From contig NZHS01000009.1 in NCBI GenBank assembly GCA_002689735.1, positions 4,018 through 12,214 on the forward strand: a DNA stretch of 8,197 nucleotides. The letters are read 5' to 3'. The position numbers and the translations under genes were made by a program. Shown here in pieces: positions 1,727 through 6,874 of the stretch; the first letter of the stretch is position 1; every line of letters begins with the position of its first letter. The stretch is from Flavobacteriales bacterium. Its GTDB lineage: Bacteria > Bacteroidota > Bacteroidia > Flavobacteriales > BACL11. The notes below the pieces were generated by a model. That model searched no databases. It saw only the letters and a program-made list of their open reading frames with translations, and had not been told where the DNA came from.

Positions 1727-2137
1727 GTGAAAAATTCTATTTACATACTCTTTTTTTTATTGCTAGTTTGTTCTTGTGAAAAAGAAGCAGGAGAAGGTGG
1801 TACATCTTCAATTGTTGGTTCTGTGTATAAAATTTCTACATATTATAATGTATTAACTCAACAGAATGATACGGTATATTATCAATTAGATTCAGGTGAA
1901 GATATTTACATAATATATTCTGATGATGAAAATGATTTTTATGATGATAATATTGAGACAAATTGGAATGGTCAGTATCGATTTGATTATTTAAGGAAAG
2001 GAGATTATACAGTTTTTATTTATGCTGATAGTACAGATAATTTAAATGTAAGCTATGATTACCCTATATTTCATCATGTAACTATTGAAGAAAATAATGC
2101 AACATATACTTTGCCAGACTTTGTTATTGAAAAATGA
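1727..2137 (+). CDS. Small lipoprotein with carboxypeptidase-regulatory-like beta domain
   Basis: The 136-residue product starts with a lipoprotein signal: a Lys, a hydrophobic run to about residue 14, and the lipobox V-C-S-C with the lipidated Cys at 17. The acidic Gly-rich stretch that follows (EKEAGEGG) suits a flexible tether and surface or outer-membrane sorting in Bacteroidota. The rest is a single beta-rich domain. It begins SIVGSVY and contains GQYRFDYLRKGDYTVFIYAD, a pattern typical of carboxypeptidase-regulatory-like or Cna-B-like beta sandwiches. No catalytic residues are apparent. The start is GTG, with no in-frame ATG that would keep the signal. Its stop overlaps the ATG of the polyphosphate polymerase (ATGA), so the two are probably translationally coupled and functionally linked. 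The exact function is not known; a structural or docking role at the envelope is inference. Confidence 0.8.
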   Translation: MKNSIYILFFLLLVCSCEKEAGEGGTSSIVGSVYKISTYYNVLTQQNDTVYYQLDSGEDIYIIYSDDENDFYDDNIETNWNGQYRFDYLRKGDYTVFIYADSTDNLNVSYDYPIFHHVTIEENNATYTLPDFVIEK

Positions 2138-2880
2138 AAGTAGCTGAACATATTAATGAATTTTTACCAACCACTCTAGAGAAAATGGATGGTGTAAAAT
2201 TATTAAGTAGGTCCGACACAAAATTTGCATTTAGTGTTAATATTTTAGAGGATTTAATTAATAGACTTACTCCATTTTATAATGTTTTAGAAATTGATGG
2301 AAAAAGAAAGCATGATTACAAATCTTTATACTTTGATACTGAAGATCGTAAGTTTTATAATGACCATCATAATCAAAGAGTTAATAGGCATAAGGTAAGA
2401 TATAGAGAATATGTAGACTCGGGCCTAGTTTTTTTAGAAATAAAGTGTAAGAATAATAAAGGCAAAACAATTAAGAAAAGATTACAGGTTGATAAAATCT
2501 ACGATAGTCTAACAGCTGATCATCAAAATTACGTGGATAAGATTATTGGATTTCCATTGAAAATTAAATCAACACAATGGATTAATTTTAGTAGAATCAC
2601 TTTAGTTCACAAAAAAGCAAAAGAAAGATTAACAATAGACTTAAATCTTAATTTCCATAACAATCAAAATAAAGGAAATTTAAATAAAATTATAATTGCA
2701 GAAGTAAAGCAGGAAAGGATGAAGAGATCATCTGATTTTATTAGAATTGCAAAAGAGATGAATATCTACCCAATGAGAATTAGTAAATATTGTTTCTCAT
2801 CATTTAACTTAGATAATTCACTTAAACAAAATCGATTTAAAGAAAAACAAATTTTTATAAATAAAATAACAAATAATTAA
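2134..2880 (+). CDS. VTC-domain polyphosphate polymerase
   Basis: This 248-residue soluble protein matches the VTC domain, the tunnel-shaped triphosphate-tunnel (CYTH-like) fold that in yeast Vtc4 makes inorganic polyphosphate from ATP. Features expected for tunnel basic residues and metal ligands are present in order: R26-S-D-T-K30; YFDTED at 66-71; R82 and the cluster H86-K-V-R89-Y-R91; E102-I-K104-C-K106; K114/K115/R116; E190-V-K192; and S217-K218-Y219 near the C terminus. The REY/EIKCK and EVK/SKY elements are the most diagnostic. There is no signal peptide or membrane segment, so it should act in the cytosol. It overlaps the lipoprotein gene by four bases and lies two bases before the DUF4956 membrane protein, a recurrent partner in bacteria. 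Bacterial members are commonly annotated as polyphosphate polymerases by homology. The reaction in this organism is inferred. Confidence 0.9.
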   Translation: MKVAEHINEFLPTTLEKMDGVKLLSRSDTKFAFSVNILEDLINRLTPFYNVLEIDGKRKHDYKSLYFDTEDRKFYNDHHNQRVNRHKVRYREYVDSGLVFLEIKCKNNKGKTIKKRLQVDKIYDSLTADHQNYVDKIIGFPLKIKSTQWINFSRITLVHKKAKERLTIDLNLNFHNNQNKGNLNKIIIAEVKQERMKRSSDFIRIAKEMNIYPMRISKYCFSSFNLDNSLKQNRFKEKQIFINKITNN

Positions 2881-2882
2881 AT

Positions 2883-3524
2883 ATGTCATTACTACTAATT
2901 TTACTTGATGGATTAGAGTTTTTAGGAACTCCTCTTTTTGATTCCAAAGACTTTTTTAAACTGATTGTTAAAGCTGCTTTTAACTTAGCAATGATATTAG
3001 TAATTGTTCGCTACATATACTACCCAATTACTAAAAATAAGGATTATTTATTTACTTATCTTTTAATAAGTTTAACTGTTTTTTTACTTTGTATCCTCTT
3101 AGACAGCGTTAAAATTGAATTAGCCTTTGCATTAGGGCTTTTTGCAATTTTTGGGATTATAAGATACAGAACTGATCCAATTCCAATTAAAGAGATGACT
3201 TATCTTTTTTTAGTGATTGGCGTTTCAGTAATAAATGCTTTAGCAAATAAGAAAATCAGTTATTCGGAGCTTGTATTTGCTAATTTTTTGATTATTGCAG
3301 TTACATTTGGGTTAGAAAGGATTTGGCTTCTAAGACACGAAACACGTAAAAATGTAATTTATGAGAGAATCGATTTGATAGGTCCTGAAAAAAGAGATGA
3401 ACTTATAAAAGACTTAAAAGATAGAACAGGTATAGATGTTGTTAGAGTTGAAATTAGGAGAATAGATTTTCTAAAGGATATTGCTTATTTGCGTATTTTC
3501 TATTATGAGAACGATAATAGCTAG
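2883..3524 (+). CDS. DUF4956 polytopic inner-membrane protein
   Basis: This is a 213-residue membrane protein with about four to five predicted spans (roughly 27-47, 55-74, 80-93, 105-121 and 127-146) and a soluble C-terminal domain of about 65 residues rich in charged residues. The block LGLFAIFGIIRYRT (84-97), followed by PIPIKEMTYLF (99-109) and VINAL (116-120), is the hallmark of DUF4956. The family has no firmly established biochemical role but is repeatedly encoded next to VTC polyphosphate polymerases. Yeast VTC combines the polymerase with a membrane domain that moves the chain across the bilayer. By analogy, this protein could be the membrane partner or conduit for polyphosphate; that is inference. 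It starts two bases after the polymerase stop and overlaps the next gene by 20 bases, indicating tight co-expression. Confidence 0.88.
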   Translation: MSLLLILLDGLEFLGTPLFDSKDFFKLIVKAAFNLAMILVIVRYIYYPITKNKDYLFTYLLISLTVFLLCILLDSVKIELAFALGLFAIFGIIRYRTDPIPIKEMTYLFLVIGVSVINALANKKISYSELVFANFLIIAVTFGLERIWLLRHETRKNVIYERIDLIGPEKRDELIKDLKDRTGIDVVRVEIRRIDFLKDIAYLRIFYYENDNS

Positions 3525-4143
3525 TATTTTCTTTTTTTCTTTATTTAGTTATGACTCAAATGCCCAGCAAAATGATTTTCAACTTTGGAATACTTTAAAA
3601 CTAAGTAAGAAAATTAATAAATCTTTAAGAGCAGATCTTAAGTATGGGGCAAGATTTAGAGAAAACGCCTCTCTCTTGTCAACTCAATTCGTTGATTTTA
3701 AAGTAAAATATAAAGAAAATAAAAGATGGAGCTTTGCTATTGGTTATAGATCAATTTCTGATTACTCCATTTCAAATAATTTAGAGTTTAAAAATAGATT
3801 CTATGCTGATGCTTATTTTTCTAAGAAGTTAAAAAGATATTTCTTTAGTATAAGAAATAGAGTCTTAACTCAATTTAATAATAATGTTTCAAAAGAAGTT
3901 CTAAGGCAGAAGTATAAGCTGGCATATAACATAAAAAAAACTAAGCTTCTTCCATCTATTTCAGTTGAGCTTTTTTATAGTTTAGATAACTATTTTTATA
4001 AAATCAGAAATTCATTTGAATTAGCTTATCCATTAAATAAAAAGATGGATTTTAGTTTAGTTTATAAAATTGAAAATGAATTTAATGTTGTTGATCCATT
4101 TACTCTTTTTATTTTTGAGCCTAAGATTAGTTATAAATTATAG
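3505..4143 (+). CDS. DUF2490 family outer-membrane beta-barrel protein
   Basis: From the ATG at 3505 the product has 212 residues and a clean Sec signal peptide: M-R-T, a hydrophobic core to about residue 14, and an S-N-A site for cleavage before Gln21. The mature part begins QQNDFQLWNTLKLSKKI, matching the start of DUF2490 proteins. It then runs as alternating amphipathic strands (for example WSFAIGYRSISDY and DFSLVYKIENEF) ending FIFEPKISYKL, as expected of a small outer-membrane barrel. A longer TTG start at 3481 would put eight extra residues before the signal peptide and is less likely. The 20-base overlap with the DUF4956 gene points to translational coupling. DUF2490 has no proven function. 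Its co-occurrence with VTC and DUF4956 suggests it belongs to the same envelope system. Confidence 0.83.
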   Translation: MRTIIASIFFFSLFSYDSNAQQNDFQLWNTLKLSKKINKSLRADLKYGARFRENASLLSTQFVDFKVKYKENKRWSFAIGYRSISDYSISNNLEFKNRFYADAYFSKKLKRYFFSIRNRVLTQFNNNVSKEVLRQKYKLAYNIKKTKLLPSISVELFYSLDNYFYKIRNSFELAYPLNKKMDFSLVYKIENEFNVVDPFTLFIFEPKISYKL

Positions 4144-4639: not shown

Positions 4640-6736
4640 ATGCATATCCTCTCCACACCAATAGAATATCTTAAAGGGGTTGGACCAATTCGTTCCGAGC
4701 TCCTAAAAAAAGAATTAAATATTTTTACATATGAAGATTTATTGTTTCATTTTCCTTTTAGGTATATTGATAAAAGTAATGTTCATTTAATTTCTCAGAT
4801 TAATGACTCTTTTCCTCATGTTCAGTTTAAGGGAAGAATAAAGAAAATTGAAGAAAAAGGAAACAAGAGATCAAAAAGATTGATTGCTTATTTTCAGGAC
4901 TCATCAGGAGTCATTGAATTGATATGGTTTAAATCTATAAGATGGATCAAGCAAAATATAGATTTGAATAAGGAATATATTGTTTTTGGAAAACCTTCTT
5001 TCTTTTCTGGAAAACCAAATTTAGTTCATCCAGATTTAGATGCTATGGATGGTGTTAAAGAAGATTTTATGGGTTTACATGGAGTTTATTCAACAACAGA
5101 AAAATTGATAAATAAAGGGTTAAATAGCAGAGCGATATCTAAGCTAGTTAAAAACTTACTTCCACTTCTTGAAAATAATATTGAAGAGAACTTATCAGAT
5201 GAAGTTTTAACTAAATTTAAAATACCAAAGAAAAAAAATGCTCTAATAAATATCCATATTTCAAAGGATCTTAAAATCTTAGAAAGAGCTCAAAAAAGAT
5301 TAAAATTTGAGGAGTTATTCTTTCTTCAATTACACCTACTAAAGTCCAAACAATTAAGAAAAACTAAAACTATTGGCTATTCATTAACTGATATTGGAGA
5401 AAATTTTAATGATTTTTATAACAATCATCTTAAATTTCCACTTACCAATGCACAAAAAAAAGTGATAAAGGAAATTCGTGCTGATGTTAAAAATAATCAG
5501 CAAATGAACAGATTGTTACAAGGGGATGTTGGTAGTGGAAAAACAATAGTTGCTCTTTTAAGTATGTTAATTGCTATTGATAACGGTTACCAAGCTTGCA
5601 TCATGGCTCCAACTGAAATATTAGCTCAACAACATTTTAAAACAATTTCTCAAGAGCTAAAATCTTTAAATATTAATATAGATATTTTAACAGGTTCAAA
5701 AAAATCAAAAGCTAGAAAGATATTATTAGAAGAATTAAAAAATGGTGATATAAATCTTCTAATAGGAACACACGCATTATTAGAAGATACAGTTGAATTT
5801 AGTAATCTTGGCTTTGTTGTTATTGATGAACAGCATAGGTTTGGAGTTGCACAAAGAGCTAAGTTATGGAAAAAGAATAAGTACCCTCCTCATATTTTAG
5901 TTATGACAGCTACTCCCATTCCTAGAACACTTTCTATGACACTATACGGAGATTTAGATGTTTCCGTAATAGATGAACTTCCTCCCGGAAGAAAAGAAAT
6001 AAAAACATTATGGAAGTCGGATAGTTCGCGATTAAATATTATCCGTTTTATGCATGAACAAATCAAAGAAGGAAGACAGGTATATATTGTTTTTCCACTA
6101 ATAGATGAGAGTGCAAAATTAGATTACAAAAATCTAATTGAAGGTTTTGATTCAATTGTTAGAGAATTTCCTCTCCCAGATTTTCAAGTAAGTGTTGTGC
6201 ATGGCCAGATGAAATCTGCCGATAAAGAATATGAAATGCAAAGATTTGTTGAAGGGAAAACAGATATTTTAGTTGCAACAACAGTTATTGAAGTAGGAGT
6301 AAATGTTCCAAATGCATCTGTAATGGTTATTGAAAGCGCTGAGAGATTTGGCTTATCACAATTACATCAGCTTAGAGGAAGAGTTGGAAGGGGAGCAAAT
6401 CAATCCTATTGTGTTCTTATGAGTGGGCATAAAGTTAGTGCTGATGGAAAGACTCGATTACAAACAATGGTTGATACAAATGATGGATTTAAATTAGCTG
6501 AAGTTGATTTAAAATTAAGAGGTCCAGGTGATATGATGGGCACAAAACAAAGTGGTTTGCTCAATTTTAAAATTGCTGATCTTATTAAGGATAATAAGAT
6601 ACTAATTTATGCTAGAGAACAGGCACAGATTTTATTGGAAGATGATTTTGATTTATCTAAATCTGAAAACATCAATATTGCAAGGTTTTATAGGCCATAT
6701 GCTAGAGAAAGGATGGGATGGAGTAGAATTAGTTAA
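4640..6736 (+). CDS. recG: ATP-dependent DNA helicase RecG
   Basis: RecG is a superfamily 2 double-stranded DNA translocase that remodels stalled forks and branch-migrates Holliday junctions. At 698 residues it is full length (E. coli 693). The N-terminal region contains the wedge OB-fold with a helix-hairpin-helix-like start (IEYLKGVGPIRSELL). The helicase core follows: Q294-G-D-V-G-S-G-K301-T (Walker A), D396-E-Q-H399 (motif II), M422-T-A-T-P-I-P-R-T (motif III), STTVIEVGVNVP-like ATTVIEVGVNVP (motif V) and Q577-L-R-G-R-V-G-R584 (motif VI). The C terminus ends in the usual RFYRPYARERMGW-type tail. All catalytic residues are present. It is the last gene of the operon. Its stop codon abuts the 3' end of the SRP RNA gene on the opposite strand, so read-through transcripts would be antisense to that RNA. 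Confidence 0.98.
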   Translation: MHILSTPIEYLKGVGPIRSELLKKELNIFTYEDLLFHFPFRYIDKSNVHLISQINDSFPHVQFKGRIKKIEEKGNKRSKRLIAYFQDSSGVIELIWFKSIRWIKQNIDLNKEYIVFGKPSFFSGKPNLVHPDLDAMDGVKEDFMGLHGVYSTTEKLINKGLNSRAISKLVKNLLPLLENNIEENLSDEVLTKFKIPKKKNALINIHISKDLKILERAQKRLKFEELFFLQLHLLKSKQLRKTKTIGYSLTDIGENFNDFYNNHLKFPLTNAQKKVIKEIRADVKNNQQMNRLLQGDVGSGKTIVALLSMLIAIDNGYQACIMAPTEILAQQHFKTISQELKSLNINIDILTGSKKSKARKILLEELKNGDINLLIGTHALLEDTVEFSNLGFVVIDEQHRFGVAQRAKLWKKNKYPPHILVMTATPIPRTLSMTLYGDLDVSVIDELPPGRKEIKTLWKSDSSRLNIIRFMHEQIKEGRQVYIVFPLIDESAKLDYKNLIEGFDSIVREFPLPDFQVSVVHGQMKSADKEYEMQRFVEGKTDILVATTVIEVGVNVPNASVMVIESAERFGLSQLHQLRGRVGRGANQSYCVLMSGHKVSADGKTRLQTMVDTNDGFKLAEVDLKLRGPGDMMGTKQSGLLNFKIADLIKDNKILIYAREQAQILLEDDFDLSKSENINIARFYRPYARERMGWSRIS

Positions 6737-6838
6737 AAAGGGTAAGCTATTTGTATCGCACCGCTACAACCTAATACCCTTGCTACATTCCTGTCCTGGG
6801 GGAGTTCTTAGGGAGCTGGTCGTACAAGACTTACCCTT
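6737..6838 (-). ncRNA. ffs: Small bacterial signal recognition particle RNA (4.5S RNA type)
   Basis: Read on the - strand, this 102-base stretch folds as a long hairpin with the SRP domain IV at its tip. The order is CAGG (6798-6795), ACA, the GGAA tetraloop (6791-6788), TGT, and AGCA (6784-6781). ACA pairs with TGT, and CAGG/AGCA forms the symmetric internal loop that binds the Ffh M domain, exactly as in E. coli 4.5S RNA. The ends close by nine pairs, AAGGGTAAG against CTTACCCTT (6830-6838 with 6738-6746), and TTGTA/TACAA lies just inside. A run of U (from 6739 down to 6735) follows the closing helix and may serve as the terminator. The segment is much richer in G+C than its surroundings. 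It acts with Ffh and FtsY in co-translational membrane targeting. Length and structure fit the small SRP RNA without an Alu domain. Exact ends are estimated to within a few bases. Confidence 0.93.
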
Positions 6839-6844
6839 AGCTCG

Positions 6845-6874
6845 CAAAATTAATATAATCTAACTTACAGCAAA
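6845..6874 (-). promoter_or_regulatory. Bacteroidota -33/-7 promoter of the SRP RNA gene
   Basis: On the - strand, TTTG (6874-6871) is followed by an 18-base spacer and then TAATTTTG (6852-6845). This fits the Bacteroidota housekeeping sigma consensus TTTG and TAnnTTTG at normal spacing. The -7 element ends about seven bases before the predicted 5' end of the RNA near 6838, as expected. It is the best-formed promoter in the window and supports both the strand and the 5' end of the RNA gene. Confidence 0.82.

Follow-up and report, generated by a model that had tools for sequence, protein, structure and literature searches.

The window analysed here is an 8,197-nucleotide stretch of DNA (G000:C12:4018-12214) from the 1.0-Mb draft genome of a Flavobacteriales bacterium (GCA_002689735.1; 63.6 % complete), and its subject is a module of four same-strand open reading frames (ORFs) arranged head-to-tail at positions 1727-4143. 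In order, these encode a predicted lipoprotein (1727..2137, + strand; 136 amino acids, GTG start), a VTC-domain protein of the triphosphate tunnel metalloenzyme (TTM) fold and predicted polyphosphate polymerase (2134..2880, +; 248 amino acids), a DUF4956 predicted inner-membrane protein (2883..3524, +; 213 amino acids) and a DUF2490 predicted outer-membrane beta-barrel with a signal peptide (3505..4143, +; 212 amino acids). The latter three belong to the Pfam families PF09359 (77.8 bits against a cut-off of 23; E-value 1.2e-21), PF16316 (178.1 bits, cut-off 30.6; 1.6e-52) and PF10677 (81.4 bits, cut-off 29.8; 9.1e-23), respectively, and an NCBIfam scan of all four proteins returned no match. 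The lipoprotein and VTC genes overlap by 4 bases, a 2-base gap separates VTC from DUF4956, DUF4956 and DUF2490 overlap by 20 bases, and the start of the following gene, cdd, is the base directly after the DUF2490 stop. Because the four genes overlap or nearly touch, one transcription unit is expected. A prior description made from the letters alone (the sequence-only reading) had placed four consecutive, overlapping genes here, ending in the lipoprotein; all four are present on the same strand with Pfam support, overlap holds at two junctions but not between VTC and DUF4956, and the lipoprotein is the first gene rather than the last. The closest named relatives are Flavobacteriales metagenome-assembled genomes, one of which (locus L032) carries a VTC protein 92 % identical to that of the window.

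The VTC domain occupies residues 26-221, nearly the whole length of its protein, and PF09359 is the sole Pfam match, with neither an SPX nor a transmembrane domain; any membrane or regulatory part must therefore be supplied by other proteins. A PDB search with the single sequence gave no match and a profile of 38 VTC relatives was needed, which matched Vtc4, Vtc2 and Vtc3 only. When mapped onto Vtc4, the equivalents of R196, K200, R264, R266, K281, K294, R361, E426 and K458 are invariant (38/38 sequences), and that of R373 is kept in 36/38. Beyond R264, R266 and E426, the residues named are those which we take to be catalytic in Vtc4. In the window, the R264/R266 equivalents are encoded by the R89-x-R91 codons (2398..2406, +) and the E426 equivalent by the E190 codon (2701..2703, +). 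These three are the residues altered in a catalytically impaired yeast VTC complex, according to the portion of PMC9911596 consulted. The window protein is thus likely, judging by its sequence, to be a polyphosphate polymerase with intact Vtc4 catalytic residues. Some relatives depart from this simple form. The VTC gene of L088 (genome G114) is split into two frames by internal stops, with the adjoining DUF4956 and DUF2490 genes remaining open, and the L072 protein (375 amino acids) has an N-terminal extension, within the range of roughly 65-125 amino acids also seen in three DUF4956 relatives, and almost no gap to the preceding gene. A 787-amino acid VTC frame in L128 was considered as a fusion and dropped, as its N-terminal part reads like out-of-frame sequence.

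The DUF4956 model (mean predicted local distance difference test score, pLDDT, 73.7) comprises five long predicted transmembrane helices and a small C-terminal beta-alpha-beta-beta domain, the latter with weak matches to small beta-alpha-beta-beta folds only (Foldseek and VIA-align). A PDB profile search returned no match, and no VTC-type transmembrane family occurred among the Pfam matches of 24 relatives up to an E-value of 5. A link to MgtC-like proteins was likewise unsupported among the Pfam matches up to an E-value of 5. The R94-x-R96 pair (codons 3162..3170, +), at the end of predicted transmembrane helix 3, is invariant in 101/101 DUF4956 sequences (97 distinct) of both the window-type and the sister subtype described below, and in the 78 window-set sequences the position of R43 is basic in 72, that of K53 in 75 and that of K103 in 74. 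The DUF4956 proteins of L066, L068 and L069 (280-316 amino acids) carry N-terminal extensions of roughly 65-125 amino acids, with almost no intergenic gap. The extension in L066 starts like a signal peptide, which together with the five helices would place the N-terminus outside and, on the inside, the loop with R94, R96 and K103 along with the C-terminal domain. A neighbouring DUF4956/DUF2490 pair is listed for Bacteroides thetaiotaomicron BT3498-BT3499, the adjacent column giving changes of -7.6 and 0.175 (PMC10434189, in the part consulted).

The likely start of DUF2490 is the ATG at 3505, which opens a signal-peptide-like MRTIIASIFFF, and not the TTG at 3481. Its predicted structure is a barrel of 11 strands (pLDDT 89.3), with the KdgM/NanC anionic-sugar porins as closest folds; the outer-membrane barrel proposed in the sequence-only reading is thus upheld, as a prediction of the anionic-sugar-porin type. 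At sequence level, PF10677 is the sole match at an E-value of 0.01 and KdgM is absent, so the protein is not a KdgM/NanC member by sequence. The excerpt of PMC4827864 consulted gives DUF2490 as a putative porin family (TC 1.B.81) for which no function has been established. Conserved basic residues are predicted to face the lumen, where the side was set by strand parity and the lumen taken as the less hydrophobic side; VTC-linked copies commonly have four of these, which the 19 unlinked copies (20 stretches less L139, the longest frame of which is a different protein) have seldom or not at all. One such lumen-side residue is R82 (codon 3748..3750, +), at a position basic in 64/67 VTC-linked against 0/19 unlinked copies.

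The predicted lipoprotein is an ORF in which the lipobox region ends CSCEKEAGEGG, with GEGGTSSI following the lipobox. Its Pfam matches are all sub-threshold (SdrD_B, CarboxypepD_reg), and of its 532 homologous proteins, none among the 120 listed has a Pfam domain.

Genes were called on the window and 103 further stretches. As these loci were picked for holding VTC or DUF4956, the resulting counts describe linkage and not prevalence. Removal of the repeats L075, L084 and L087 (equal to L036, L034 and L035), and inclusion of L041, the DUF4956 of which is 54 % identical to that of the window, left 72 distinct window-type VTC loci. VTC is immediately followed by DUF4956 in 70/72, the others being L088, with the broken VTC gene, and L089, at a contig end; DUF2490 directly follows DUF4956 in 60/72 and is present in 65/72. 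The lipoprotein lies directly upstream of VTC in 30/72 loci, yet in all 21 fetched loci of the window's family. The rare co-occurrence that was to speak against the sequence-only reading is therefore not seen for DUF4956 or DUF2490, and is half borne out for the lipoprotein. The same arrangement is found in different families, orders and classes of the Bacteroidota, far more often than chance would allow. Among the 149 relatives, VTC occurs in 65, DUF4956 in 69, CotH in 99 and DUF2490 in 113 genomes, with DUF4956 found in 64/65 VTC+ (the exception, G044, is at a contig end) against 5/84 VTC- genomes. In a phylum sample of 296 genomes (at least 90 % complete, plus the window's own), DUF4956 accompanies VTC in 48/48; these co-occurrence counts ignore phylogeny, though they recur across families and classes. 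VTC and DUF4956 also match the same three of 14 control genomes.

A sister subtype carries a different envelope arm. In its 18 loci with VTC, DUF4956 is next in 15, DUF2490 in none, and CotH is present in 5 by the strict profile. Of the 23 sister loci in all, five of which have no VTC, 16 have a HlyD-like gene next to VTC or DUF4956, with one further 95-amino acid fragment (L116). Searched with seeds taken from the sister subtype, this gene was found in none of the window-type loci, and HlyD_3 was supported by Pfam in three of four scanned proteins (L119, L118 and L134, not L125). The DUF2490 and HlyD-like arms thus seem to be interchangeable, and this indirectly supports a path through the envelope.

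The strongest partner of the module, and one found with it more consistently in the phylum than is the lipoprotein, is a CotH-kinase protein. It occurs in 47/48 VTC+ against 60/248 VTC- genomes of the phylum sample, and in 64/65 VTC+ relatives (the exception, G005, is 53 % complete) against 35/84 VTC- relatives; these counts, which again ignore phylogeny, use a domain-only profile and diverged copies may be missed. A full-length CotH profile was dropped, as it caught proteins which share only the type IX secretion system tail (e.g. a Reg_prop protein). Among the controls, CotH is found in two of three VTC+ genomes and in Bacillus subtilis, which has neither VTC nor DUF4956. A CotH domain is encoded within the fetched stretch of 42/72 window-type loci. 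In the window's family, a gene for a CotH protein of ~735 amino acids lies just upstream of the lipoprotein in 15/21 fetched loci, and one of the six without it (L093) ends at a contig end; the CotH of L036, at the locus, and that of L094 each have a lamin-tail domain as well as a type IX secretion tail. In sixteen Flavobacteriaceae-type loci (L037-L053 without L041), CotH is directly downstream of DUF2490 in nine, elsewhere upstream in five and unseen in two. The proteins of this type are mostly 470-500 amino acids long and predicted lipoproteins, several with acidic residues right after the cysteine, a pattern which we take to be a surface-export signal. The sole CotH found in the window's own incomplete genome is on another contig, and is closer to the relatives' upstream paralogue (55 %) than to the operon copies (36-41 %). 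The only VTC+ phylum genome without CotH is G370, where VTC-DUF4956-DUF2490 (L095) is followed by a predicted lipoprotein of the Cthe_2159 family (PF14262). Near the L042 module, an EF-hand-like protein was read from the sequence, and downstream of CotH a YHYH-motif lipoprotein (no Pfam match), a repeat protein and an SCO1-like protein; a calcium or metal link is possible. Outside the Bacteroidota, the NELoc-2 locus of the Gram-positive Clostridium perfringens is described with a CotH gene and two polyphosphate-polymerase-domain genes in the section of PMC11677781 consulted.

Known polyphosphate kinases are nearly absent from the window's family, with PPK1 in 0/37 and PPK2 in 1/37 genomes, many of them incomplete drafts, while among 60 relatives PPK1 was detected in 14 and PPK2 in 12 (two below the cut-off). 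VTC is thus nearly the sole candidate for polyphosphate synthesis seen in this small-genome family. The phylum at large differs, as 45/48 VTC+ genomes carry PPK1. The proposal that the module acts in place of Ppk therefore stands for the window's family and falls for the phylum, where VTC as a plain PPK substitute was rejected; the presence of VTC beside PPK1 outside the family argues for a different job.

The best single explanation, which we hold tentatively and at somewhat less than an even chance, is that the module makes polyphosphate and couples its synthesis to export to the cell surface. The VTC protein would make polyphosphate from ATP while docked at the cytosolic face of DUF4956, where R94 and R96 (with K103, K51 and K53 in the window's type) may pull the polyanion, as it forms, into the inner membrane or across it. 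DUF2490 would serve as the outer-membrane conduit, assisted in some lineages by the lipoprotein, its envelope role falling to a HlyD-type adaptor in the sister subtype. Outside, the polyphosphate may be deposited at the surface, or used, together with a secreted CotH-kinase-like protein. The identity of the polymer, the direction of transport, the complex and the role of CotH are what we infer here. Basic residues in the first transmembrane helix of yeast Vtc1/3/4 are reported to draw in the polyphosphate chain, in the portion of PMC9911596 consulted. The sequence-only reading, which had proposed polyphosphate synthesis coupled to export, was about half right, and CotH is its missing piece. 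A further proposal, which we consider distinctly improbable, is that ATP-derived polyphosphate, exported by way of DUF2490 or a HlyD adaptor, is the phosphoryl donor for a secreted, surface-anchored CotH kinase, which would phosphorylate surface proteins or glycans where ATP is scarce; this would explain why VTC+ genomes are almost never without CotH.

Several observations weigh against export. At the first step, the literature searched contained no account of polyphosphate synthesis by a bacterial VTC protein, and PPK1 stands alongside VTC in most VTC+ genomes of the phylum. At the inner membrane, the DUF4956 model is of only moderate confidence, its membrane part is without a convincing solved relative by Foldseek and VIA-align, and R43, K53 and K103 are basic in just 2, 1 and 3 of the 23 sister-set sequences, so that the R-x-R pair alone is common to both subtypes. 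DUF4956 furthermore occurs in 26/248 VTC- phylum genomes, and DUF4956-DUF2490 pairs without an adjoining VTC gene were found in L073 (G112) and L086 (G001); the L073 pair is followed by a CotH gene. At the outer membrane, NalP and other barrels equal KdgM/NanC in Z-score, and much of the basic ladder (R50, R98, R117, R119, R134 and R168) is also present in unlinked DUF2490 and may thus be a generic trait of the family. The residues specific to linked copies could mark one clade instead of polyphosphate, conserved acidic residues also fall on the predicted lumen side, and the lumen assignment is partly circular for charged residues. Finally, CotH is missing from the fetched stretch in 30/72 window-type loci (some cut by contig ends), from the window's own locus and from the locus in the window's genus, and it occurs without VTC in the 60 phylum genomes counted above and in the B. 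subtilis control.

Ranked behind polyphosphate export, and rather doubtful in our view, is that the module serves a surface polysaccharide or glycoprotein pathway in an accessory role, in which VTC and DUF4956 would supply phosphate at the membrane, as polyphosphate or a short phosphorylated donor, CotH would pass it on to a protein or glycan outside the cell, and DUF2490 would be an anionic-sugar porin. KdgM and NanC, the top folds for DUF2490, carry acidic oligosaccharides, most of the basic ladder is common to unlinked copies, and the window encodes a GT2 glycosyltransferase 3.3 kb downstream. The near-constancy of CotH (47/48 VTC+ genomes) fits this role, as does the protein of a carbohydrate-binding family, Cthe_2159, after DUF2490 in the one genome without CotH. 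Genes for cotH, a poly-phosphate polymerase and DUF4956 moreover accompany Gram-positive pel operons (PMC7112168, in the part consulted), though no pel gene occurs among the Pfam matches, which cover the window only and not the neighbours of other loci, and the VTC catalytic set is of the chain-forming polymerase type.

It is unlikely that the module is a plain inner-membrane polyphosphate synthase of lineages which have lost PPK, with a cytosolic or membrane-associated product, DUF4956 only anchoring or regulating the polymerase, and DUF2490, the lipoprotein and CotH forming a separate cell-surface function which shares the operon. The kinase counts in the window's family (PPK1 0/37, PPK2 1/37) would suit such a synthase and the unrelated gene cdd does follow directly on the cluster, but PPK1 is kept in 45/48 VTC+ phylum genomes, DUF2490 directly follows DUF4956 in 60/72 loci, the sister subtype often carries an adaptor instead, and the CotH association would be left aside. 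That the VTC fold no longer polymerises and instead binds or hydrolyses nucleotides or triphosphates as the sensor of a signalling or stress module is very improbable, for although the TTM fold is shared by triphosphatases and cyclases, the VTC protein lacks an SPX domain, and DUF4956 is modelled with a C-terminal beta-alpha-beta-beta domain of a kind presumably found in regulatory proteins, the E426, K458, R264 and R266 equivalents are invariant (38/38) and the profile matches only Vtc proteins in the PDB.

The full gene series of the window is apbE (cut at its 5' end), a short minus-strand ORF, mazG, the four module genes, cdd, recG, DUF4199 and GT2, where recG was named by reading and is absent from the Pfam scan. 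A Bacteroidales small signal recognition particle (SRP) RNA (RF04183, 108.8 bits; 6736-6843, - strand) abuts the recG stop, and an 84-amino acid ORF spanning it (6609-6863) is probably spurious.

Discussion of polyphosphate in bacteria mostly concerns the cytosolic product of Ppk, and a literature search on extracellular polyphosphate found nothing. If export is correct, the module would represent a dedicated polyphosphate secretion route in Gram-negative bacteria and give a function to DUF4956 and linked DUF2490, while the CotH association makes the power source of extracytoplasmic kinases directly testable. The module shares with PPK1 and PPK2 the synthesis of polyphosphate from nucleotides (as presumed for VTC) but belongs to different protein families, and most VTC+ genomes in the phylum sample have PPK1 as well, while both kinases are nearly unseen in the window's family. 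The KdgM/NanC porins have a 12-stranded fold, and the window barrel is modelled with 11 strands; by Pfam it belongs to DUF2490. The open-licence literature searched yielded no Gram-negative counterpart carrying DUF2490, the lipoprotein or HlyD, although the trio of CotH, polymerase and DUF4956 is already in print for Gram-positive bacteria, where the part of PMC7112168 consulted gives cotH, poly-phosphate polymerase, DUF4956 and DUF4832 as an accessory set of pel operons. The Bacteroidota module resembles this set in bringing together CotH, a VTC-type polymerase and DUF4956. It differs in that no pel-type family occurs among the Pfam matches of the window, that the window locus is without a linked CotH (though 42/72 window-type loci have one), that it has additional genes, for a DUF2490 barrel and a lipoprotein or, in the sister subtype, a HlyD-like protein, and that its CotH examples are type IX-tailed or predicted lipoproteins. 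With the yeast VTC complex (Vtc1/Vtc3/Vtc4, with Vtc2), the module has in common a TTM-fold catalytic domain with the same catalytic residues and, probably, basic residues that couple synthesis of the chain to its passage across the membrane (PMC9911596, in the portion consulted). Unlike the yeast complex, however, it divides its catalytic, membrane and outer parts among separate proteins, its polymerase shows no SPX domain, the membrane partner is DUF4956 (PF16316) and not a VTC-type transmembrane domain, and there are two membranes to cross.

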